From assembly GCF_029784155.1 (NCBI RefSeq), contig NC_073691.1:137342409-137406408 (forward strand): 64,000 nucleotides of DNA, read 5' to 3'. This stretch comes from Uranotaenia lowii. Its lineage: Eukaryota; Arthropoda; Insecta; Diptera; Culicidae. The position numbers and the translations under genes are program-made. The notes beneath the pieces are model-generated. The model had not been told where the DNA came from and did not search any database. It saw nothing but the letters and a program-made list of their open reading frames with translations. Below are positions 1-60,640 of this stretch, piece after piece (the stretch's first letter is position 1; every line of letters starts with the position of its first letter).

Positions 1-656
1 TATACATCGGATTCAGATGAAAATTGGTACACGAGAGTTTTGAGGGACGAGCAACCGATTTCAGGTACTAAATTCAGTGTAAGGGTCCGGCAAAAGGGGT
101 CGTCCATGTTAAACTTTCAATATTTTTGCAATATCGTCATAATTATACATCGGATTGGGATGAAAACTTGCACACGGTAGTTTTCAGGGACAGGCAATCG
201 ATTTCAGATGTCAAATATTTTGCCAGGGGTCGACGAAAGGGGTCGTCCATTTAGATTAATTGTTCACTGTTTTTTGCAATATTGACGTTATTATGCAACG
301 GATTGCTTTGAAAATTGGTACACGGGAGTTTTGAGGGAAGGGCCATCGATTTCAGATATCAAATATGGTATAAGAAGCCTCGGAAAGGGGTTTAACTTTT
401 TGGCAAAAATTGCGTTGTTATGCAACGATTGAGTCAAAATTTATACACGGGTTTTTTTGGCACGGTCAATTGATTCCTGATTTCAAATTTATTAGCAGAC
501 GACAGACAAATTGATCGTCCAATATTTTTGCAATTATTACTTAACAATGAATTCAAAAGTGCATCTGGAAAATGCTTGGCCATTGACTTTCATGCAAACT
601 GTTCATGGCATATTCCAAGTTGGAAGCGAAACGGAGTTCGTATGGGATCAGCTAGT
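1..656 (+). mobile_element. Helitron-like 3' end fragment with internal ~125-148 bp repeats
   Basis: Three to four degenerate copies of one unit run head to tail; each has a 'atgaaaattgg.acacg' segment followed by 'tttcaggtatcaaat' and 'ggggtcgtccat', with unit starts near 1, 144, 292 and 419. The fragment ends at 655 with a short hairpin (CGAA...TTCG) followed by 'gatcagCTAG' and then T. A 3' hairpin a few bases before CTRR, with insertion before T, is the Helitron hallmark. The same end occurs at 6340 and 31916. No protein is visible; it is non-autonomous or truncated at the window edge. Confidence 0.5.
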
Positions 657-2300: not shown

Positions 2301-2626
2301 GGCCAGGGGTCGTCCATATTACCTGTACAATGGTTTTGCGATAATGACGTTATTATAAATTGGATTAAAATGAAAATTGGCAAACGGAAGTTTTCAGGGA
2401 TTGATAATCGATTTTAGGTATCAAATTTAGTCTGAGGGCTCGGAAAAAGGGGACGTCAGTATTACATGTTCATTGCTTTTGTGATTCTGACGTTATTGTT
2501 CATTGGATTTCAATGAAAATTCGCACATGTGACGGGCAGGCTTACTCAGGTATCCAATTTTGTATAACGAGTCAGTCAAAGGAGTCGTCCATATTATTCA
2601 ATACCTGTTTTGCAATTTTGACAGTA
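2301..2626 (+). repeat. Helitron-associated ~125 bp repeat units
   Basis: Two to three units of the same family as positions 1-655, each with 'atgaaaatt.gcacac' and 'ggggtcgtccatatta'. The run is interrupted at 2627 by the foldback-like element and resumes at 5708, so the element inserted into this array. Confidence 0.5.
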
Positions 2627-2814
2627 CAGTAAGGTTTTTTTTTACACTGATATACGTGCCGCGTAAAAAAAAACCGTGTAAAAAAAACCGTGTTAATTCC
2701 CGAAAACCGTGTAAAAAAAAACCGTGCTAATTCCCGAAAACCGTGTTAAAAAAAACCGTGTTAATTTCCGAAAATCGTGTAAAAAAAGACCATTCGAATT
2801 CTGCAGCTTTGAAG

Positions 2815-3270
2815 TTCTGACACTTAAGACCTGAGACCTGAGACTTGAGACATAAGACCTGGACTTGAAAATGTAGACTAGAGACATGAGACCTGAGACT
2901 TTAGACATGACACCTGAGACCTAAGTCCAGGGACCTGAGATCTGAGACATCAAACCTGAGACTTGAAGAATGAGACCAAAGACATGGGACATTAGACCTG
3001 AGACCTGAGACTAGAAACCTAAGACATAAAACACGAGACCTGATACCTGAGACATGGGACATGAGACCTGAGACATGAGACTTGAGACTTAAGACATGAC
3101 ACCTGAGACCTGAGACCTGGGACATGAGACATGAGACAAGAGGCATGAGACATGAGATATGAGACCTGAGGCCTGAGACATGAGACATGAGACATAAGAC
3201 ATGAGACCTGAGGTATGAGACAAGAGCCATGAAAGATTAGACCTGAGACATGAGACTTTAGACCTGAGAC
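2815..3270. repeat. 7-bp array (CCTGAGA/CATGAGA), left arm
   Basis: About 60 degenerate copies of a heptamer that alternates between CCTGAGA and CATGAGA. Because three units equal 21 bp, every frame translates to a 7-residue period, which produces spurious open frames. The mirrored array lies at 5077-5515. Confidence 0.9.
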
Positions 3271-3840
3271 AAGCTACTAATGTTAGTACCGCGAAAAATT
3301 AGTTTAGCTCCGATTTCAACTTTCGACCCCTCTAGTGAAAGGGTTTGACTTGTAGATGACGAAAAATAGTGTCGCGACTTCGCTAGTACAAGCTACTAGT
3401 GTTAGTACCGCGAGAAATTAGTTAAACTCCGATTTATACATGCGACCCCTCTAATGAAAGGGTTTGACTTGTAGATGACGAAAAACAGTGTCGCGACTTG
3501 GCTAGTACAAGCTACTAGTGTTAGTACCGCGAGAAACTAGTTAAGCTCCGATTTAGACTTGCGACCCCTCTAGTGAAAGGGTTTGACTTGTAGGTGACGA
3601 AAAACAGTGTCGTGAAATCGCTAGTCCAAACTACTAGTGTTAGTACCGCGAAATATTAGTTTAGCTCCGATTTCAACTTTCGACCGGTCAAGTGGAAGGG
3701 TTTGACTTGTAGGTAACGAAAAATAGTGTCGCGATTTCGCTAGTACAAGCTACTAGGATTAGTACCGCGAGAAATTAGTTAAGCTCCGATTTCAACTTTC
3801 GACCCGTCAAGTGAAAGGGATTGACTTCTTGGTGATATTG
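3270..3840. repeat. 119-bp tandem repeat, left arm
   Basis: Unit starts at 3270, 3389, 3508, 3627 and 3746 give an exact period of 119. Each unit contains 'caagctacta.tgttagtacc', 'gacccctctagtgaaaggg' and 'gtcgcgacttcgctagta'. Copies differ by a few substitutions each. Confidence 0.92.
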
Positions 3841-4304
3841 GTTACAGGGGGTTTTCTTGAGAATCCGTGGAATTGAATAGTATTTAAAGTGTATTTTTTA
3901 TACTTTGTATCACGTTTTGTTTTAATAACTGGCAAAATAAATCAAAACGCGCAAGCAGAAGCTGCAGCATCCAGCTGAAAATTGAGTAAAATCATCATTC
4001 TAGAGAGCTCTGAGAGCTGTGAGCCCGTGCGTTTTTTGATTGTTTGAAAACTCACAACTTGTGGAACCAATAATTTTTCTGACTACCTCAATTTTATGTG
4101 CAATCAACTTTAAAACTTTTTTGTACAAACGGTATGATTATTTGCGGAAATAATGTTTTTAAAGGCCATTGAAGTTGAAAACTGTAGCATGATGCACCAG
4201 ATGCACCAGACGGTATCTCTGTTTAAAAGACATACGTTGTCTATGCCGATTTAGGCTTTGTAGACTGAATTAATTAGGTTGAAAATTTAAGATTAACATT
4301 TAAC

Positions 4305-4395
4305 TCTAATACCGAGATGGGAATCGAACCCATGCCATCAGTGGACCAGCGATTACTCGACCAGCGAGACGTATCTCACAACTAACCTTGAGTTC
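4305..4395 (-). repeat. tRNA-like SINE head in the loop of the foldback-like element
   Basis: On the - strand: GTCTCGCTGGTCGAGTAATC ... GGGTTCGATTCCC. This is a good RNA polymerase III B box and an A-box-like segment (TGGTCGAG), as in Ser/Leu-type tRNA heads. There is no complete cloverleaf with an anticodon stem, so a tRNA-derived SINE remnant is more likely than a tRNA gene. A related head is at 8628-8712. Confidence 0.5.
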
Positions 4396-4424
4396 TGTTT
4401 GCTTCAAACACTTTAACTTGATTG

Positions 4425-5076
4425 GTCGCAGATTGAAATCGGAAATGAAACTTCTTTCTACCGGTAATAACACTAGCAGCTTGTACTAGCAAACTCGCGA
4501 CACTATTTTTCATCATCTAAAAGTCAAACCCTTTCATTTGACCGGTCGAAAGTTGAAATCGGAGCTAAACTAATTTCTCGTGGTACTAACACTAGTAGCT
4601 TGTACTAGCGAAGTCGCGACACTATTTTTCGTCATCTACAAGTCAAACCCTTTTACTAGAGGGGTCGCAGGTTGAAATCGGAGCTTAACTAATTTCTCGC
4701 GGTACTAATCCTAGTAGCTTGTACTAGCGAAGTTACGACATTGTTTTTCGTCATCTACAAGTCAAACCCTTTCATTAGAGGGGTCGCAAGTATAAATCGG
4801 AGTTTAACTAGTTTCTCGTGGTACTAACACTAGTAGCTTGTACTAGCGAAGTCGCGACACTATTTTTCGTCATCTACAAGTCAAACCCTTCTACTAGAGG
4901 GGTCGCAAGTTGAAATCGGAGCTTAACTAATTTCTCGCGGTACTAACACTAGTAGCTTGTACTAGCGAAGTCGCGACACTGGTTTTCGTCATCTACAAGT
5001 CAAAACCTTTCATTAGAGGGGTCGCATGTAGAAATCGGAGCTAAACTTGTTTCTCGCGGTACTAATTCTAGTAGCT
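4425..5076. repeat. 119-bp tandem repeat, right arm (inverted)
   Basis: Reverse complement of the 3270-3840 repeat. The landmark 'ctagtagcttg' recurs at 4592, 4711, 4830, 4949 and 5068, again exactly every 119 bp. The innermost copy is the most degraded. Confidence 0.92.
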
Positions 5077-5515
5077 TGTCTCCGGTCTCAGGTCCAAAGT
5101 CTCCTGTCTCAGGTCTCAGGTCTCATGTTTTATGCCTCTTGTCTCTTGCCTCAGGTCTCATGTCTTATGTCTCATGCCTCATGTCTCATGTCCCATGTCT
5201 CAGGTCTAAAGTCTCATGTTTCATGGCTCTTGTCTCATGCCTCAGGTCTCAGGTCTCAGGTGTCATGTCTCAAGTCTCATGTCTCAGGTCTAATATCCCT
5301 TGTCTCAGCTTCCAGGTCTCAGGTCTCATGTCTAATTTCTAATGTTTCATGTCTCAGGTCTCAGGTCTCATGTCTCATGTCTCATGTCTCATGTCTCATA
5401 TCTCAGGTCTCAGGTCTCAGGTCTCAGGTCTCAGGTCTCAGGTCTCAAGTCTCAGGTCTCAGGTCTCAGGTCCCAGGTCTTAGGTCTCATGTATCATGTT
5501 CTTAGTCTAAGAGAT
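5077..5515. repeat. 7-bp array (TCTCAGG/TCTCATG), right arm (inverted)
   Basis: Reverse complement of the 2815-3270 array. The stretch 5400-5480 is nearly homogeneous TCTCAGG, which suggests recent local expansion. Confidence 0.9.
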
Positions 5516-5707
5516 AAGATTTTCCCAACTTGAAAAAGATTCAAAGTGTTTTCCTTTGAAAAGGACTTAGAATATTTTCTCTCAAAAACCGTGTTAATTC
5601 GCGAAAACCGTGTAAAAAAAAACCGTGTTAATTCCCGAAAACCGTGTAAAAAAAGCCGTGTAAAAAAAAACCGCGTAAAAAAAACCGTGTAAAAAAAAAC
5701 CTAGGTG

Positions 5708-6341
5708 TATTATTTATTAGATTTTGATAAAAATTGCCCGGGAAGTTTCTGGGACGGGCAATCGATTTCAGGTATCAAATTTGGTGTAAAGGGTCTGAAA
5801 AAGGGGTCGTCCATATAAACTGTTTATGGTTTTTAGATATTGACGTTATGATGCATCAGATTTGGTTTGAAAATTCTACTTAATTTAAGAGACGGGCTAT
5901 CAAATTGATGTAAAAATTAGCACACGAGGGTTTTTTGAGGTAAGACGAATCGATCCGTATTGTGGAATTATGAGTCCAAAGTTAATGCCTGGGATCGATG
6001 AGAAAAAGTTGTGCAGTTATTTATTGAGAGTTTTGGGTATACAATTTCGGATAATCATGTAACGAAAAAGCGCCATTCTCATGAACCAGCAACAGTTAAC
6101 GCGACATTTTTTTTTTTGGAACTGTACTAGTAAACATACGAATTGAAGAACGGGTTTTGGAGAGAAACGGATACGTTGTTATACGTTGGCGGTTTTCCAA
6201 CTTTTTAATGAGAATGATCTTACTGAATAGTTATTTTTTATACAGTGTAAGGAATATTATACGTTGTTTGAAAAATATAATCTTATTTTATCGCAATTTT
6301 ATTATTACTTGCGAAACGAAGTTCGTACGGAATCAGCTAGT
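5708..6341 (+). mobile_element. Helitron-like fragment with 3' end
   Basis: Contains units of the same ~125 bp repeat as 1-655 and ends at 6340 with a CGAA/TTCG hairpin, then 'aatcagCTAG' and T. With 2301-2626 it probably formed one copy before the 2627-5707 element inserted. Confidence 0.5.
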
Positions 6342-6689
6342 ACCAGAAAGAAAATAAGATCTCATATGAGACAAGTTCAAATATTTTGTTCCCGTTTATT
6401 CTCGACAACAACAATGATCAGACGGAGTGATATTTGAAAACTGGAAGCTATTCATTTTGGTCAAAAAATCGTTTTTTGCCTGTTCAAGTACTTGTGGTGT
6501 AAAAAGGCTTATTAAAATTAATACTCAATTAAGATTTTATCCCATAAGCCCGAAATCAATGACCCGGAATGATTTTTCCCCAGAATGCCACAAAACCTAG
6601 ATTTTTTACTGTAGTTTTGGCTTTTGAAATTTAAGTAGCCGACTCCTCACGCTGCGCGTTCGAACTTTAAAATCGTATTATCCTTCAGG

Positions 6690-7042
6690 CTGTAGCGTGA
6701 CGGAGACTCTAATCCAATAATGATCTACCTTGGAGGTGGAATTATCGGTATTAGATCCTATGCCGGGACGGTATTACAGGTCTCAGGTCTTAGGTCTCTT
6801 GTCTCACGGTTAAGGGCTCTGGTCTCATTTTTCAGGTCTCAGGTCATAGATTTCAGGTCTCAAGTCTCAGGTTTCATGTTTTATGATCTCAACATTCGGA
6901 GCAGGTCCTCCAAGTCACAACTAAAAAAAATATACACGGTTTTCCTTAATTAGCACGGTTATTACACGTTTTTTTTAAAAAGGTAATTAACACAGTTATT
7001 TTGCTCTGATTTTACGCGGTACGTTATCTAGTGTGAAAGAAA
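6690..7042. mobile_element. Truncated relative of the 2627-5707 element
   Basis: Has a short array of the 7-bp repeat (GTCTCAG type, 6778-6880), then inverted 'acacggtt..ttaattagcacggtt' subterminal repeats, and ends ...AACTTTACTG followed by TA. Read inverted, the end is CAGTAAAGTTTCTTTCACAC followed by '.gata.acgt.ccgcgtaaaa', closely matching the left end at 2627. The other end was not found. The 6710-6775 segment also resembles 51685-51745 inverted. Confidence 0.55.
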
Positions 7043-7466
7043 CTTTACTGTACTTTTTTCCCAAAATCATTTTTATATTCAATCTTAAGACTACAAAGTT
7101 TTTGTCGTTTTGCCATGTTACTGAATTAATAATATTTTTCTTTCATGAAATCGACACTTTTCCTATGAAAACTTTCAAACAAATCAAAGAGTAATAAGAT
7201 AATGCTAAAATTTTACTAGGATTGTTTTATTATTACAATTATTTAATAAGAACAAGATAAAGGACGGATTGGATTCCAGAAACTTTAGCAATGAGGGGCC
7301 ACCTTAATGGTCAGTTGTGAGTTCTGGTGGAAAATAATCAGATATGTGTACATACATACTTTTAAAAGAATACATAAACCTAATACGTATGGAATAAAAA
7401 AACAGTTAAAGGCCTTTCACGCTAAACTCATTAACAAACAAGTACACATCTTTCTTCTATTCTCAG
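7043..7466. other. Upstream of the desaturase coding exons
   Basis: AT-rich, with no gene of its own. It ends in a pyrimidine tract and CAG (7449-7466), which looks like a 3' splice site. The desaturase therefore probably has at least one further 5' non-coding exon upstream that I cannot place. Confidence 0.4.
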
Positions 7467-10400
7467 AACCCTTCCCGATGATGGCACCAAACGTGCTCGG
7501 GAACACGTTACTGCTGGCGGAAACGTGTATAGAACAGGATGATTCGAACAACAACAACAATAGCAGCAGCCAGATCAAAGCGAACAAATCTATCCTGAAT
7601 GTGAGAGGCCCGGAATCGACGGTCACAGCACCGGCAACGGTGACACGTGTCAAGGTTGGTTTTATCAGCTCCCTGTTTCCTAATAACTCCGATTTGCTCT
7701 AATTAGTGCGCCTAAATACCGACAATCGGTCAAATTTTCACAGGACGATGCACTTCAAAAGACTGCCCAAAAAAGCGCCTCCTCCGCATCCCCCCGAGAG
7801 ATGGTGCTGGTTTGGAGGAACATACTGGCGTTCGTTTATCTGCATGCCGGTTTCCTGTATGGTGGCTACCTGCTGTTCACCTCAGCCAAATTTTCCACAT
7901 TCGTGCTTGGTAAGTGAAGTTGATTAAAATGTGTATATGTGGATTTTTAGACAAATTTCAATTACCTTTAGTGGAAAACCAACCAGTTCAGCATAAAGTT
8001 CTAAAATTTGAATTCGATCTATATATTTTTTCATTTCAAACTAATACGGCCACGTAAAAAACTTTCTTGTATTTTTTTGTCCTAACTTCTCTGAAAACAT
8101 AATCTTGAGAAACTATCAGTACACACGATACCGGCTGTTCGGTTCAAACGGCCGAGCTTACGACGAAAAAATACTGAGCTTTCTATAACAAAGCTGAATT
8201 GATAACTTTTTTAGGGACGGATGCCTCCTTTAAAAATGTAATCCCTTATAAAAAAAAACTTTATTTACGGTTTGTTTGATAAATATTACTGTTAATTCAG
8301 TTTTCCAACTTATTTAGAAAGAAGGTGCTAATTCATCCTATTTGCCAAATAGGATATCCTCTAAAAAAAATCCTTCTCCCACTTTTCTGCATATAACATC
8401 CTGGGTCGTATGAGTTCTTTGCACCTGAAAAGTTAATTTTTTTTTAATCAGATTATCTCCATTATGATCACATTGACTTGTCGCGGTGTGCATTAAAGTA
8501 TTACACTATTTTTTTTTAATAACACTTGAAATGAGTGTTGCATCCAGATTCTCATTTTGGCATCTTGTGTTGATTTGCATTATGAGTTGTACTTTGTGTA
8601 TCAGTCAATGCAAGTTGTGTGCAGTACCTAGGTGGGAATCGAACCCATGTCATTAGTGGACCAGCGATCAACGTCTTACCACCATTAACGCTCGACCACC
8701 GAGACGTACGAGTTGTTTCTTGGTATGAATAAATGCTGAAAATTCGATAGTAGCGTTCATGAATTTTGTTCATTATCGCCATCCTATTTTCCTACATCCT
8801 TCAACAAAATACAACACCGTTAAGGGAAAACTTCTTTCTGGAACTCAAAATCTTGAACCACATGGGATTTGCCTTCAAACCGGCACCAAAAAATAAATGA
8901 TTAATGCTAAACGCGTGACGTCGAGGAATTATTGATCGTGTGCAAAGATAAATTTTGCGAAATTTAGAATTCAATCTTCTACTCGGGAAATGCTCTATTC
9001 AAAAGATTGTTGAATCGTGATGTCTTGCATTTCAACGAGCTCCTTTCGACACGATGTGACTCAACTCAGCTGGTGACTCCTGGCGAAGTTTCTGGAATGA
9101 ATAAGGCTTTCAATGGCAGCGAACGAGACGCTCCCAAATGTTACCAACCAAAGGTAGTCAGGTATCACATGTTTGGCCGATTTTGGGGCTGACCGATTGA
9201 GCGAAGACAACAACAACTTATAACGTTAATTCGGATTGATCGCGTGAATGTGAATCATTAGCATGCGGCGCAGCAATTTTAGATCACCATTCGATAGAGA
9301 CTTTCAACGACTACGAAGTTATTTTCTAATTTGAATTAGACAATTATTGATCACGTTTTGTTTAGGAAATTGAATTATTTATGATTGATGGGTGCTCAGC
9401 AGTTCTGTATGGTTGATCTTTCCAAATTCATTGTTTAGGTTTGTTTGGCAAATCATTCGTTATGCGCAGAAAAAGCCCTTGCAGAGAGATTAACACTTTC
9501 TTCGAGGATAGGTAGTAGTAGGTATATATTTGATCTTGAGCGCAAAGAGTGCGCAATTTGCTTAAGCTATGTTGAATGAAGTTTGGTGCAAATTGCATCA
9601 TGTCGATCGCCACACGGATGTTGAACTTTCTCCGGGCCATCGAACAAACCAAGCCCTTCATTATGATGGATGAATGACAAATCATTATAAGTGTCATGAT
9701 AGTGCGGTTATTTTCTTTTGTAGAGTCCGCGAACAGCTGCAGTTGAAGCTAGAGGTTGATATATGCCATCTATTGAGGAAACTTTGTCTGAATCAATCTT
9801 GGTTTGGTATGGATGAAGAGGAAAATCTGCTTGGGAGTATCAAGCTGTTTCTGATATATAAATATTAGCCATTATGCAATCGGAAGATGTTTGTTTCATG
9901 CTTTGATTACACTTGTACACTTATTGTTCAGTGTAAAACTCCGTGTTTCGTCGGGGATTATATACTTTGTTATGTTTTGTATTTTTTTTTTTATGATTTT
10001 TTTAAATAAAAATTAGGGATACCATTACGTACTCTTATGGTAGTACATGTAAGGCTAAGTGGAGTAATTAATTGTTTGTTGTTTTTATAAACTTTTTTCG
10101 ACGAGAAAAAAAAAATAGTGCCACACTAGTTTATAGAGCTTTAAAATGGTCGAATGCTGGCTATCGAGAAGGAACTTCGAAAACTGTACAAAGTATATTT
10201 AAGATAAACAATCTATTACCCTCAACAATTGGTAACGAAAATTATTAAAGGACGGAATCATAAAATGTACAACATTTTAAATGATAGTAAAATCGAACAA
10301 TCCAAAAGTTACATTACTATTCCGTATAGTGCAGGTTTAGGTGAGAAGTTAGCCAAATATTTTAAACAGTATGACTTCAATGTAGCCTTTAAAGAAAGTA

Positions 10401-13400: not shown

Positions 13401-16400
13401 ACAAAATTAAAATCACACTCATGCCACACACTGATAAGGTACTTATCTGTCGTGCGAGCTTTCATTACGTAATATGAAATATTTTAAGAATTCACAGAAA
13501 ATTGCTGCAAAAGTTATCAAAACAACTTTAAAATTTGTATTCCACAAAAAAATATGTTGTCCAGGCTACAAATAATCTAAATGGAAAGAAGTTGCGACTA
13601 GTTTATGTCAGTTTTTTGTATTTTTTCGTTATAATACTGTTTATTAACATTTTGTTTCATACGACGTAATGAAAGCTCAAAAGTTCAAAACTTGCGAAAA
13701 CGCGGATCGCAAAAATTTTTACGTTATGTCCGAAGCACGGATTACTTCGATCTTATAGTTGTAACCAGTGCTGCAAATAATCAGTGTCAGCTTTCAATTT
13801 TCAATTGAATTTACTGCAGTGTGCGATCAGTTCATTTCCATCTGCATTCATCTGATAATGAACAGAAAGCTCAATCCCGAAAGCACTCTGCATACTCATT
13901 CACGAATCGGCAACATCGGTGCTGAGTATACATTCAGGCTCTTTACAGGTTCATGAGATTATCCAATCTTCATTTTCAGTATCAAGCAAACATTGCTGAA
14001 AGTGAAAAAAGCTCAGTTCGATTATCATTAAGTTTAGTTGAATGGTGACAAAGCTTGTTCGATGCGCTAGACTTGCGGAAATTGAATAATTACTGCTGAG
14101 ATTTCTATTGTAGAGGTGGGAAGGTTGAGAAATAATTGTTCGGGTTGGCGAGAAGAACGCTGGCGAGGAAGCGTGTGGGACGAATGTGGGGGATAAAACT
14201 ATGAAAAAAATTACGACAAAAATGTTATAAAATTATGACACAAATATGACAAAAAATTTTGCAATAAAATGCCAAAACATGAAAAACGTGGTAAAAGTAT
14301 GACAGAACTATGACAAAAAAATCCACAAATCTGACAAATATGACTTAAATTTTACAATGTAATAAATTTTACAATGAAATGACAGTATCATGACATAAAA
14401 TTTATGATATACATAACACAAATATGACCAATTTTTGATTAAAATATTTAAAAAATTTAAATTAAAGGGGCAAAAATGTCGTCAAACTATGTAAAATTAT
14501 AACAAAGTGGTAAAAATATGATAAATGTCATATCTTTCTGATTGTTGTAATTTTTTTACCAAATTTGTCATATTTGCCATGTTTTTTTTTTCATTTTAGT
14601 GCTAATTTTTTTGTAATAATTTTGTCATATTTATCAAATTTATGTAATAATTTTGTTTTATTTTTATTATTATTTCCATATTTTTGCCATATTTTTATCA
14701 CATTTGTCAAATTTTTATCTCATCTGTCAGATTTTTGTCATGTTTTTGTTATTTTTTGTCATTTTATGGTTTTTTTTTGTCATATTTCGGCCATAATTTT
14801 GTCATATTTGTTAGATTGCTGTCATTTTATTGTCAAATTTTGTCATATCTGTCAGATTTTGGTCATACTATATGTTGTCATAATTTTGTCATGTTTTCAC
14901 CATATTTATTTCATTTTGTCATAATTTTGTCCTATTTTGACTACAATTGTCAAATTTTTGTTATATTTGTCAGATATTCGCTATGTCGTCATCAAGAAAT
15001 TTATATACATATCTCTTTCCGTCCCCTCTGAACAATCGTATAGTCTTAGCTAATTTCAAATCGTGTTTTCTTTTCGAATCCCATTTCACAATTTTTGAAA
15101 ATGGCGAAAAAACAAATGCCTACTGAAATTATCAGCAACTTTAGCTGACACTGATTGAATGCTAAAGCTGCATTCACTGATCGAATGCAGTGAGTGACAG
15201 AAACGCCTAAGCGAAAGACGCTTTCGTAGCAGTCGAGTGAAAAAAGTTAGTTCGGGTTTACGAATAAGCTTTCTACTGACTGATAGACATACTCGCAAAG
15301 CTTGCCGTAAGCACGAAGACGACCGAGCCGATCAGAAGCTTTTATATTTGTCGACTTTTACATTCCATTCATTTCCGTTCAAGCTTTTTACACTGATAAA
15401 AATTCACAGTCAATATCATTCGTGCTTTCAGAAATTTTGCAGCACTGGTTGTAACTTGCAAACCTAACTATATAAATTTTGAAATTACTACAGTGTCTCA
15501 TTCATGTCTCTGAGAAACGAAAATCCATTCCAGCATTCCACATTCCCTAGATTGATTTGGTCATGTACAGGGTTTCAAAGTGAAGTGGACAAGTAATGCA
15601 AACTACGATCGGGCCCCAAAGTTATTAAAATATTTAAAAAAAGGTCGTATGAATTCAAGTTTTGCTCATTTTTTTAAGGTTAGCTTAAGCTAAATGGTTT
15701 TTTAGGAGGTTGAAACATGATTTGAACGGGGTTGACTTTTTTCGATGAAAAAAAAGGTGTTTTTCTTCACTCTTGTCGAACTAGAACTTAAAGCAGCATG
15801 ATTTTAAAAGTTTATTTTCCACAGAGGGCTCCCCATAAGCCGGGAGGGTGGAGCGGGAAAATAGCCGCCCATTCTCCCTCCCTCCTCTTTTTATACAGCC
15901 TTGGGTATAGGCTAGGGTTGCCATCCGTCCCGAAAAACCGGGACATGTCCCGCTTTTTTGTTGAATGTTCCGCTGTCCCGCTTTTTCCTCAAAATGTCCC
16001 GCTTTTTTTTCTTGGAAAACTTTAAAAAGTAAACTGACTGACCACGGAAAAATTCAAACTTTAGTCTCAATTTGAATTCTATGATGAACAGAAAACCTTT
16101 GAAATCAACTTTTTCTCTAAATAAGCAGCATTTTTCATAGCTTATATAAGAAAATACAGAATAAATCTAAAGCTCTAAGCATTACAGTAAGATTCTGATT
16201 CAGTTAAGTGTTCTTGCAGCACGTAAGCCAATGTATGAGAAAAATATTGTTAAAGTTGCCTCCAGATAATTAGGGGAGAATTAAGGGGATACTTGATCCC
16301 CTTTTCTTATTTTCATCATATCTTTTTGGGAAAATTTAGCAACTCGCCGTCTTTTGCATTTTCTGCTAGCATGTAATTTAAACTTTATATGCTCCAAAAT

Positions 16401-28196: not shown

Positions 28197-28354
28197 CATA
28201 TAATCATGCTCTTAAAAAGCTTAATTGTACAGCCAAACCACGCCAAACTTTCACGTAAACGCGTATACCATCGTCAAATATTATTCATAGAAAGTTCACT
28301 AAAGCTCTTTTACGGATTGATTTTGCCTAATTTCTTTACATGACTTCTATTTAC

Positions 28355-28440
28355 ACGGTTTTTTCCATAAGCACGGTTATTACATGGTTCTCGCAAATTA
28401 ACGTGCTCCAAGAACGCTTAACTGAATCCGAATAATACTG
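28355..28440. mobile_element. Solo end of the CAGTAAG, TA-flanked family
   Basis: Inverted, it reads TACAGTATTATTCGGATTCAG followed by 'ttaagcgttcttggagcacgtt' and 'gcgagaaccatg', matching the left end at 16193-16240. The partner end is not seen; it may have been displaced by the LINE. Confidence 0.5.
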
Positions 28441-29281
28441 TAACTTATTCAGTATTGTCTTATTTTCTGTGTTGAACCAATGAATTGATTGATTGAAGTG
28501 CGTTTATTTGGGAGGGTGCCGTGCGCTAAGCGATTAAGCACCCTGAAGGAATTGAAATTGAGGCTACAGTTTGATTTTTTCCAGTGTAAGTCAGTGAACT
28601 GTGTGAAGGTTTTCCAAGAAACACGGGCCGGATAGCAACCCTAGCTTAAGGTTAAAGATCATCGTTGTTTTAAACAACTATTTTAAAGGTACTTTGCTCA
28701 AATTTTTGCTTATTGGTTTTCAAATACGCAATTTCAAATTGCTTAGCACCTGTTTCGACATGCTGTCCCAGATTTCACAGGAACCCAATATTTTTGGTGA
28801 TAAACACCCTAGAAGCGACAAGTCTTGGTTACTGGTGATATTTTGAAAATCAGAGAGACCCCTACTTGAAAAAGTTCTTGTAATTCATCATCTGGAAATA
28901 TCATCTGGTCGAAAATAATCGATTCAAATACATGAGGAGCAGTCAAATGGAAGAAATAGAGGTTTTTATTAGAAAATTTCACTGTTGCAATGACGATTAG
29001 AAGCTTTTATATTTGTTGACTTTTCTATTCCATTCATTTCAGTTTAAGCTTTTCACATTGATAGAAAATCACAGTCAATATCATTCATGCTTTCAGAATT
29101 TGCAGCATTGTTGCAGACAGTGGAAATGGCAATAATGCGTTGCGCCAAAGTGAACTGAGAGTCACCTCTGAGGTAAAGATGAAAAGCATGTTTTGGTCAT
29201 GAAAACTGATTTTGTGCGAAATAATCTAACGGGTGTTGGCTTTTTCGATTCAAAACAGTTCTTCGGCTTGTCAAGAAATAA
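28441..29281. repeat. Fragments of two repeat families
   Basis: 28621-28645 inverted resembles the CTAGGGTTGCCATCC end at 15912. 28985-29115 matches 15325-15447, the right end of the 13766 hAT element ('aagcttttatattt..tcgactttt', 'cagtcaatatcatt'). No gene between. Confidence 0.45.
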
Positions 29282-42930: not shown

Positions 42931-45504
42931 AAAATCAGGACAGCATAAAAATAATCTGGATTTTTCATCACAAATTCTTGCAGTTTATATGAAAAAAAAA
43001 AAACATTTAAATATCATCTGAACCGAACATTCTCATCGATCAAACTATTTTTTTTACAGATTTTTTCGATATCCTGATAATTTAACTCTAAACTCAATCA
43101 CCATCATTTATTTGAAAATCATAACAATTCAGTAGGTACTTTTTATAACCAATTTTTCAAAAATCAGGGCGAATCAGGACAATTTCAAAAATTGGTTTGA
43201 AAATTAATTAGCAGAAAAGTTCAAGATTTCATCAAAAGTATATAGGATTTTTGTTTTGTTATTTTTCCTTCAAAGTATGATAAAAGACCTACGTTTTGAG
43301 TTCCAAAATATTTTAATTACATTACATAGCTTCAAGATAGACCCGTTTTAATACGTCCAGATCTAAGATGAACTATGCTTTATAATTTGTTTTTCGGATT
43401 AATGATTCTGTATTCTGATTATTACCAGTTTACAGTATTCAAAACATCAGTGCATTCTTATGGCCCATCATTTGCATGTTTCTCGTACAGGATTTCTTGC
43501 ATTAATAATGTGCTCGTAAATTAAGGTTTATTACCATAATAAATACTTCGCAGCAAGCACACAATGGGGAGGGGAAAAAATTATGCTACCCATCAATCGA
43601 ACCGCAGCAGTTGCACTTTCTATCGATGATTGTTTGTTTGGTTTCGAATGACTAGGCACAATCGGTAATTTTATTTTCGTTTTAATCGATGATGTCAACT
43701 GGTTGCACTTTTTCCTGCTGCAGTTTCGCACATCGTTCATGAAATCGATAGTGATCGTTAAAATAATTGAAGCCCAGGATACCTCTCGCTCGTTACCCCA
43801 ACCTTTCGAATGCAGAAATGTTGGAAAGTGAAACTTCAGAGAGAGCAAGGATCCTGTTAGGAAACCGGCTCGGAAAAATCTCGTTAAGCCAGCAACTTTT
43901 TCGCTATGGAGAGTGAAAACTGCCTTGAATTGATTTTTCCACTCGTCCCCCAGCACCCCTCTCGTTTGAGCAGAGTGAGTACAATTTCACCCAGTGATCC
44001 AGATTTCCGTCCCCTGCTAGTGGATTTTACCTTACCCGTATCTGATCTTCCCACAGTTGAGTTAATACTCAATGAACCGGTTAAGAGTTCAATCTTCAGC
44101 ACTCTGAGCTGTTGTGTTGCAGATGGAATCATCTGGCAATGCGTACTATTTACGTTTGTGTGTATATGCACGTTGTTACTAGTTTTTCAAGTTATTCTTC
44201 CCCATGGTCATGGTCAATCTTCAATCAACGGCGCTTTCGATAATTGGGAGAAAATGTTTTGCTGCCTCTGGCAAATCAGCTAGCTACGCTTACTGGATTC
44301 TACGACACTCAAAATAAAAAATAAAATAATGTTATTTTCGAATATGATGAACATAATTAAACTAGAAAACTGATTTTATCCTATCTAATGTAATATTAAC
44401 ATGCATATCGTCTTTTCTTGAAAGGTTCAAGATCTAGTGTACCGTCAACTGGAACACCATGCAACACTTTTCAACTTCAATGGCTTCTAAAAACTAAATA
44501 TCCACAGATAATCATACCTTTTGTACATCAAAAGTTTTAAGGTTGATGGTACATCAAATTGACGTAGTCAGAAAAATTATTGGTTTCACCAGGTTTAAAA
44601 TTTGCAAATAGAGCGATTTTCTCCCTTATAAGATAAAGGGGTAAGTGGCAACAAACTTTGTTTTTAATTTTAAATTAATATTTATCGGTGAATGTTATGT
44701 TCTCATACTGAGAAAATTTGAAGATTTGAAAATTATAAATGTATAGAAAATAATTAGAAGAAAATTACAGATGTTTAAAATGAGCGTTTTCAATGAAAAA
44801 TCAAATGAAAACGTTAGAAAATATATAATTTTTGATGTATTTGTGATTTCTTAACGCATGAAGCACCAATTGCAGAAATTTTTGGTTTTGTTCGAATAAA
44901 ATTTTACAATTTTTCAGTCAAAATGTTTCTAAAGAAAAAGCGTAAGGGTGCTGCACATATTTGGGGGTAAAAATACATACCCCGTTCGTTTTTGGCAACA
45001 TTCAATTTGGCAACATCAGATTTTGGCTCATAAATATGCCAAAATCGAACGGTTTCATAGTTTAATACTGTTTAATAGTCTTTTTAGAACTTTTTTTGAA
45101 ATTTCAGAGCATAAAAATTGAATTTTTTTTACTTTATTTCATCCTTAAGGAACTTAAGGTTTCGAATAAACTGGTTCATCCTGTTCGGTTCAGAGATCAA
45201 TAATTCAAGACACAACACTAGAAACCTGATTTATATGACTAAGATTAATTCTTCTTGATTTATTTATTGTATTTCATATACTTTACTGTTAATCTGATGC
45301 TTGAACTTCAAATCTGGATCTCAAAACCTGTTGTTGAATTTCGGTTATCGAAAGAATACTTTCACCGTGATTCAAGATTTTGGTCTGTTCATCAAAAGAA
45401 TTCAACATTTCAATAGAATTAGAATGTACCAATCTTTATTTTTTAAATATGCATTACACTTATTCCAGTAATAAATATGGACTTTTTAAACTGAACTCTA
45501 TTCA
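42931..45504. other. Long stretch without a supported gene
   Basis: Contains a CT-rich, GC-higher segment at 43780-44200 ('ctctctgaagtttcac') that could be a promoter or non-coding exon, with a donor-like GTGAGTAC at 43976. No frame there has a recognisable domain. 45010-45060 is a solo end of the DD37E-like element (gttcgtttttggcaacattc). Confidence 0.35.
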
Positions 45505-60109: not shown

Positions 60110-60640
60110 TTATTCAAATCAAAACAATCAGCAGCAGCAGCCTTAAATATCTGCGCTTTCAGAGGCAATTCCGTCTTATTTCCACCGGAAGGCCAAATCA
60201 AAACAATCAGCAGCAGCAGCCTTAAATATCTGCGCTTTTCAGGGGCAATCCCGTCTTATTTCCACCGGAAGGCCAAATCAAAACAATCAGCAGCAGCAGC
60301 CTTAAATATCTGCGCTTTTCAGGGGCAAATCCGTCTTATTTCCACCGGAAGGCCAAATCAAAACAATCAGCAGCAGCAGCCTTAAACATTTGCGCTTTTC
60401 TGGGGCAATTCCGTCTTATTTCCACCGGAAGGCCAAATCAAAACAATCAGCAGCAGCAGCCTTAAATATCTGCGCTTTTCAGGGGCAATTCCGTCTTATT
60501 TCCTCCGGAAGGCCAAATCAAAACAATCAGCAGCAGCAGCCTTAAATATCTGCGCTTTTCAGTGGCAATTCCGTCTTATTTCCACCGGAAGGCCAAATCA
60601 AAACAATCAGCAGCAGCAGCCTTAAATATCTGCGCCATTT
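60110..60640. repeat. 80-bp tandem array, about 7 copies
   Basis: The landmark 'aaaacaatcagcagcagcag' starts at 60121, 60200, 60280, 60360, 60440, 60520 and 60600. Units are more than 95% alike ('ccttaaatatctgcgcttttc', 'ttccaccggaaggccaaatc'). Recent homogenisation is likely. Lies between the two direct repeats. Confidence 0.95.

Follow-up and report, generated by a model that had tools for sequence, protein, structure and literature searches.

A dispersed foldback-like element with two satellite arrays in mirror order between TA-flanked ends in the mosquito Uranotaenia lowii

How do two unrelated satellite repeats come to stand in mirror order around a common centre, and can such a structure move? 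The question is raised by positions 2627-5707 of a 64,000-nucleotide stretch of DNA from the mosquito Uranotaenia lowii (assembly GCF_029784155.1, contig NC_073691.1), the whole of which we call the window. An earlier note, made from the letters alone, had described this segment as a foldback-like element whose arms are a 7-bp and a 119-bp array, enclosed by TA-flanked ends of pogo type, and had suggested that it might show how satellites are born and moved. The segment is one copy of a dispersed foldback-like mobile family that occupies hundreds of places in the genome. Its members are probably non-autonomous, TA-inserting DNA transposons with a foldback core, moved in trans.

The window copy comprises the following features, where loci examined elsewhere in the genome carry L numbers and TRF stands for Tandem Repeats Finder.

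2625..2626, no strand: left target-site copy (TA); alignment to the surrounding ~148-bp host repeat is gap-free at the junction
2627..2649, plus strand: left terminal sequence CAGTAAGG-T9-ACACTG; agrees with the inverted right end at 19/23 positions; tip found in 29/29 complete copies
2659..2791, plus strand: left subterminal array of AACCGTGT-type repeats with 14- and 34-bp periods, direct orientation
2827..3268, plus strand: left 7-bp array, GAGACCT type (TRF)
3269..3835, plus strand: left 119-bp array, five units, the final one stopping at phase 91 (TRF and profile)
3836..4403, plus strand: loop, shortened relative to the 875-bp version in other copies, with pieces of dispersed host repeats (profile)
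4061..4203, plus strand: loop piece with an 84% match also at window 44446-44589 (minus strand)
4304..4388, minus strand: candidate tRNA-like loop piece of the short interspersed nuclear element (SINE) type; for the longer form of the loop, relatives lie at window 8622-8708 and at L015 8696-8863
4404..5079, minus strand: right 119-bp array, six units, the innermost partial (phase 80) (TRF and profile)
5080..5499, minus strand: right 7-bp array, TGTCTCA on the plus strand (TRF)
5584..5701, plus strand: right subterminal array of AACCGTGT-type repeats, oriented as on the left
5685..5707, minus strand: right terminal sequence, inward reading CACCTAGG-T9-ACACGG
5708..5709, no strand: right target-site copy (TA)

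The mirror order of the window copy, in which the 7-bp array lies outside the 119-bp array on either side of a 568-bp loop, is confirmed both by TRF and by the pairing of the arms. By TRF, the left side has a 7-bp array at 2827-3271 and a 119-bp array at 3269-3827 (4.7 copies, 88% matches), and the right side a 119-bp array at 4404-5079 (5.7 copies, 87% matches) and a 7-bp array at 5077-5499. The inverted arms (2876-3836 and 4512-5472) pair without gaps over 961 nt at 83%. The loop also exists, at 568 bp by profile rather than the 585 bp first claimed. Both arms switch from the 7-bp to the 119-bp repeat at the identical base of both units (GAGAC/AAGCTACTA), and this shared switch point suggests a single origin of the junction. 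The T9-ACAC ends with their flanking TA are borne out on both sides, with the correction that the right tip is CACCTAGG and not CAGTAAGG. The 16-mer AGG-T9-ACAC occurs ten times in the window at up to two mismatches, against a mean of 0.14 in shuffled sequence, and nine of these occurrences fall within the element.

The same architecture recurs across the genome (1.08 Gb searched, with contigs of 216, 437 and 370 Mb). A dimer of the 119-bp unit gave 228 matches in the best 40 of 900 candidate places; the matches listed form 37 clusters, and all 20 that were examined contain both ends, both subterminal arrays, paired 7-bp and 119-bp arrays and, where present, the loop, with foreign inserts in L010, L016 and L024. 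In the reciprocal direction, ten loci picked by the right end alone (from the best 40 of 2,207 candidates, none of them among the listed dimer matches) all carry the 7-bp and 119-bp arrays. The examined stretches of L031 and L032 stop short of the left end, leaving 29 complete copies: the window copy, the 20 dimer-query loci and eight of the ten reciprocal loci. These span CAGTAAGG-T8-10 to CCTAGGTG (CCTTGGTG instead in L033 and L034). Right ends have a mean identity of 0.986 (minimum 0.939). Every complete copy has the tips and is flanked by TA on both sides, with otherwise differing flanks that define 28 distinct sites, L017 and L018 sharing theirs. The claim that tips and arrays form one element is therefore upheld.

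Genome-wide, the left-end pattern has 249 matches (132 + 117) and the right-end pattern 175 (98 + 77), with none for either reversed-pattern control; a relaxed left-end pattern finds 318 places. In the part of the genome listed for both patterns, 57 of 100 left ends pair with a same-strand right end within 20 kb, using 56 of 68 right ends. The pairs are spaced at 2.2-6.2 kb in 52 cases and at 8.0-13.7 kb in five, two of which share one right end. The 43 left and 12 right ends that stay unpaired are expected, because the patterns are exact and some copies are broken. Two peculiarities of individual loci deserve mention. L017 and L018 (C3 234.9 and 234.3 Mb) have identical flanks and element, oppositely oriented and separated by about 0.65 Mb, and may be a segmental duplication or a duplicated haplotype. 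In L013 (2799-3406) the right end is mirrored across a ~380-bp TA tract, which may be a genuine palindromic duplication or an assembly artefact.

Empty sites identify what is duplicated on insertion. For 21 copies, the two flanks were joined and aligned to the window and the loci under study; six of them aligned across the junction. Single-TA empty sites, which the earlier note had proposed to look for, were found for two copies: a 192-bp match of 100% identity within L028's own locus, and an 85% match for L024 at window 22313-22013. The alignments for L011 and L022 are gap-free at the junction and have TG where TA is expected, and the window copy, set against the ~148-bp host repeats of the window and L028, has TA at the site in six of eight alignments. 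Taken together, this evidence shows that the target duplication is TA. The diverged ~148-bp tandem repeat that hosts the window copy occupies window 1-391, 2276-2624 and 5710-5950, and also L028 441-992. The identical empty target of L028 lies inverted at L028 1312-1503, some 1.2 kb away from the occupied one; insertion may have been into one arm of another inverted repeat.

A comparison of arm with arm and copy with copy, also suggested by the earlier note, was made with 327 full units from 21 copies, skipping L017-L018 pairs. The best match lies in the same arm of another copy for 296 units (27 of these tied with their own arm) and in the own arm only for 17. This predominance of same-arm matches implies that the two arms had already diverged when the family spread, with little exchange between them. 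Between copies, position-1 units have an identity of 0.962, against 0.878 between left and right arms within a copy, and the arms of a single copy differ by 12-17%. The 119-bp period claimed for the arrays holds for the monomer; the left arm is really a weak dimer of 238 bp, in which units two apart are more alike than neighbours (0.919 at lag 2, 0.872 at lag 1). The right arm is weakly dimeric (0.900 vs 0.882), and L039, an array outside the element, has no dimer period. Arm length is labile, with 3 to 20 units per arm across 21 copies and 3,413 bp of 119-bp repeats (~29 units) in L031. Arrays and loop join at phases 91/80 in 12 of 21 copies and at ~85-91 and 73 in L010, L012 and L026, while the six loop-less copies have 111/68 (four) or 119/84 (two).

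The loop itself has been trimmed in different ways. Its longest common form is ~875 bp, and the 568-bp loop of the window and a form of ~591-598 bp each lack different parts of it. It contains dispersed host repeats, with relatives at window 44446-44592 and 44830-44973 (84% and 81%). The tRNA-like piece has relatives at window 8622-8708 (84%) and L015 8696-8863 (74%); its tRNA/SINE label is a candidate reading of the box-B-like GGTTCGATTCC, and a search of the element and loop against Rfam gave no tRNA hit, only hits far below gathering scores. A midpoint-rooted tree of the outer arms of 27 copies (L016 and L024, with large outer-arm inserts, were excluded from it and from the 7-bp register comparison below) places copies without a real loop on three branches. 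L019, L020, L025 and L028 lie inside a group with ~595-bp loops; L021 and L022 lie beside L013-L015; and L033 and L034 group with L029, L036 and L037, which have a short spacer only. The loop has thus been lost at least twice, on the first two branches; the third may be a loss or the ancestral state, because the root is a midpoint only. The end branches of the first group are at most 0.0031, and these loop-less near-palindromes have therefore moved recently.

The subterminal repeats bear on how the composite was assembled. As the earlier note had described, they are direct rather than inverted: a CCGTGT-type motif is direct at both ends in 21/21 copies, and no reverse motif of this type occurs within 200 bp of either end in these copies. 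Small relatives were found among five relaxed left-end places (stretches of 741-831 bp, not among the strict matches listed). L048, a 473-bp form without inversion, combines the left tip with a single 7-bp array oriented as in the right arm, together with the right spacer and the right subterminal array; its right tip CTTACTG is the exact inverse of CAGTAAG, and the element has TA on either side. Two further places, L049 (113 bp) and L052 (137 bp), have a left tip, one direct CCGTG-type array, a weak right tip (GCTTG and ATTGGGG) and TA, and are apparent tiny elements. The remaining two, L050 and L051, resemble the left portions of older copies. Should the small relatives prove to be what they seem, the direct subterminal arrays would be two halves of one array, and their orientation would no longer be odd, because these relatives carry a single such array.

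The window also contains one decayed relative.

6777..7050, minus strand: left end from 7050 with TA outside, subterminal repeats and a 7-bp array of ~100 bp, no right end detected; it aligns with a score of 59, and the best of 500 shuffles reached 32

A possible right end for it near window 6594-6620 was rejected (63/500 shuffles as good). Window 28300-28500 (minus strand) resembles the right subterminal part (0/500 shuffles as good).

From these forms a history can be proposed. The transposase would be TA-specific, most likely a member of the IS630/Tc1/mariner/pogo group, and would act in trans on the CAGTAAGG tips and perhaps on the AACCGTGT subterminal repeats. The founder was probably a short miniature inverted-repeat transposable element (MITE) with one AACCGTGT array between its tips; the 473-bp relative, which also has a 7-bp array, would represent the next stage. 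A foldback core, with a 7-bp and a 119-bp array inverted around a host-repeat loop, would then have arisen or been captured inside. This would have split the AACCGTGT array, and its repeats would therefore point the same way at both ends. Fold-back repair of a break between repeats would be a reasonable route to the inverted core. The composite subsequently spread whole, its 119-bp arrays growing and shrinking arm by arm and its loop being trimmed, more than once to nothing.

Several observations weigh against parts of this account. The best or tied-best match lies in the opposite arm for 14/327 units, and past position 1 the same-arm excess is small (0.889-0.911 between copies, 0.876 for the opposite arm). 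The left and right 7-bp arrays of 27 copies have no consistent best shift that would indicate a shared register, in an ungapped comparison that indels blur. One empty-site alignment, of L016 with L015, is broken at the junction by a 7-bp gap. In L049 and L052 the right tip is a weak match, and although none of 300 shuffles was as good for either, that test spans array and tip jointly; the small elements may alternatively be deletion products. Between the 119-bp unit and the subterminal repeats there is no significant resemblance, and the idea that the arms are transposase-binding repeats, drawn from AAAAACAGTGT in the unit and subterminal AAAAACCGTGT, was abandoned (337/500 shuffles as good). 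Finally, the inserts and long copies, partly examined, yielded no transposase or autonomous copy, and no genome-wide transposase search was made. L043 and L044, two of five unusually long copies, hold other inserted DNA and no long frame in the parts examined. Their candidacy as autonomous copies was dropped, their longest frames (140 and 134 amino acids) lying in the 7-bp arrays.

The inserts have features of their own. Those of L016 (5747-8680) and L044 (2120-6578) share one position, where the right 7-bp array gives way to the right subterminal part, and both are hAT-like, the L044 insert in its tips. The L016 insert is flanked by a duplication of TCTAAGAG; that of L044 has a near-duplicated GTCTAAGA with extra bases, and its right side is not clean. 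In the left 7-bp array of L024, 545-2084 is a reverse-transcriptase-like fragment with a poly-A end.

Is the 119-bp repeat itself confined to the family? A 19-mer spanning the unit junction occurs 3,019 times in the genome. The first 100 of these places form 28 clusters on C1 between 2.0 and 65.1 Mb, of which eight (51 hits) have an exact element end within 8 kb and 20 (49 hits) do not. In the examined stretches of seven of these 20, neither tips nor 7-bp arrays were found, save for a weak 25-bp right-subterminal match in L042. Four of these stretches span no more than 2.1-2.2 kb, and in L042 and L047 the array continues up to the stretch edge. L039, L045 and L046 form a second dispersed family, with inverted 119-bp arrays, shared flanks and the boundary TGATTAACGGCAC, and without 7-bp arrays or the element's tips; L039-L046 alignments reach L039 687-3909. 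L040 is a decayed inverted pair with TGATTAATGGCAC on the left and a copy with two mismatches on the right, a motif that at two mismatches occurs seven times in 310,932 other bases. L041, L042 and L047 have a single array orientation within the examined stretch. Beside the array in L041, 1461-2099 encodes a 213-amino-acid frame with helix-turn-helix matches and a below-cutoff match to a Tc3-type transposase.

The 119-bp array is thus not exclusive to the element, contrary to what the earlier note had implied, and the search for such arrays elsewhere that it proposed finds both decayed arrays and a second family. Its broader suggestion stands in part: a satellite has been moved, while on the birth of satellites the data lean towards capture of an existing, older satellite by the element, a direction that seven loci leave unsettled. 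The opposite direction, in which the element produced the satellite and outside arrays escaped from it, seems doubtful. It would suit the free variation of unit number inside the element, up to ~29, and the closeness of L039, whose units are up to 0.951 identical to element units and have a uniformity (mean unit identity 0.892) close to that within the element (0.895; 94 units, 7 copies). Other outside arrays are more diverse among their own units (L041 0.859, L042 0.764, L040 0.722), and the second family has the inverted arms without 7-bp arrays or tips, although the outside sample is only seven loci. Tentatively, and staying with capture, we speculate that the inverted 119-bp arms are a transferable module: an older palindromic core, also present in the unrelated second family of L039, L045 and L046, may have been captured by a tiny TA-inserting MITE. 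An element barely longer than 100 bp would thereby have become a mobile palindrome of 2-6 kb, one that loses its loop repeatedly yet keeps moving.

The family combines the marks of two kinds of element. Like foldbacks, it has long inverted tandem-repeat arms around a variable middle, and its copies stand at unrelated sites with a target duplication. It also has inverted terminal repeats (19/23 positions in the window copy; exact CAGTAAG/CTTACTG tips in L048) and the TA duplication of the Tc1/mariner/pogo group (IS630). The pogo-type label given to its ends would fit the TA and the inverted tips; transposase evidence was not found in the DNA examined, and membership in that group, resting for this reason on TA and tips, is unproven. 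MITEs of this group share the TA duplication, CA-starting tips and short non-coding forms (L048, probably L049 and L052), whereas ordinary MITEs have no multi-kilobase foldback core. Galileo, a Drosophila element, has a target duplication other than TA, and Helentrons make no duplication. For MITEs in mosquitoes, those of Aedes served as the comparison (PMC3259105, seen in part).

The nearest published case known to us is Tetris of Drosophila virilis, which already links foldbacks with satellite arrays. As far as the accessible part of its description goes, Tetris is a non-autonomous foldback with inverted arms of a tandem repeat in variable number and a variable middle; its repeat also occurs outside the element, no transposase was found for it, and a smaller relative (DAIBAM) shares its ends (PMC4079207). 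It differs in having one ~220-bp repeat rather than two unrelated ones of 7 and 119 bp, and three structurally complete copies, against 249 left-end matches here; the direct outer subterminal arrays, small one-array relatives and repeatedly arisen loop-less forms set the present family further apart (PMC4079207). That our family is itself a Mutator/FB-type foldback is very improbable: its arms, variable units and middle and want of coding capacity fit, but Tetris has duplications of 8-10 bp (PMC4079207), whereas TA alone flanks all 29 complete copies and the identical 192-bp empty site of L028 needs nothing longer.

Galileo, of the P superfamily, is similar in its inverted repeats of 18-1,250 bp, in ~210-bp tandem repeats that alter arm length in one subfamily, and in its chimeric and deletion forms; it has transposase-bearing copies of that superfamily, and the part of the source seen mentions no second satellite (PMC3573991). 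Helentrons are another kind of element with other ends, and are similar in that a non-autonomous element spreads short satellite arrays, according to the accessible parts of two accounts (PMC7492417, PMC12628747). Such carriers would make a Helitron-type origin thinkable, with insertion occurring without duplication and the TAs belonging to the ends; we regard it as highly improbable, since the empty sites of L028 and L024 have one TA where filled sites have two, and since the tips are inverted, exactly so in L048. Chance mirror order of independent neighbours, or assembly error, is refuted by the copies: assemblies can make palindromes, as the right end of L013 might illustrate, but there is a difference of 12-17% between the arms, and all 29 complete copies, at 28 sites, repeat the order. 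In the open literature searched (titles and abstract starts, most subscription journals being outside reach), Tetris, Galileo and Tm1 came up, and neither a TA-inserting foldback with two satellites nor a 119-bp mosquito satellite was found.

Links between transposons and satellites have often been inferred from fragments. Here, apparent minimal MITEs occur in a single genome together with a form that has one array, the complete two-satellite foldback with and without its loop, a second family that shares the 119-bp arms, and decayed arrays, so that the order of events, the direction of satellite-transposon exchange and the stability of mobile palindromes become testable by trees and strain comparison. 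A small transposon can carry satellite DNA about, and spacer-less palindromes of ~3 kb that still transpose would probe the tolerance of transposase and replication.

Elsewhere in the window, three of five scanned frames have Pfam matches, to a desaturase and two reverse transcriptases. An 80-bp tandem array lies at 60115-60635 (6.5 copies, 96% matches by TRF). At 14193-14968, TRF reports imperfect 11-bp arrays of AAAAATATGAC and then TTTTTGTCATA in opposite orientation, possibly another foldback-like structure.

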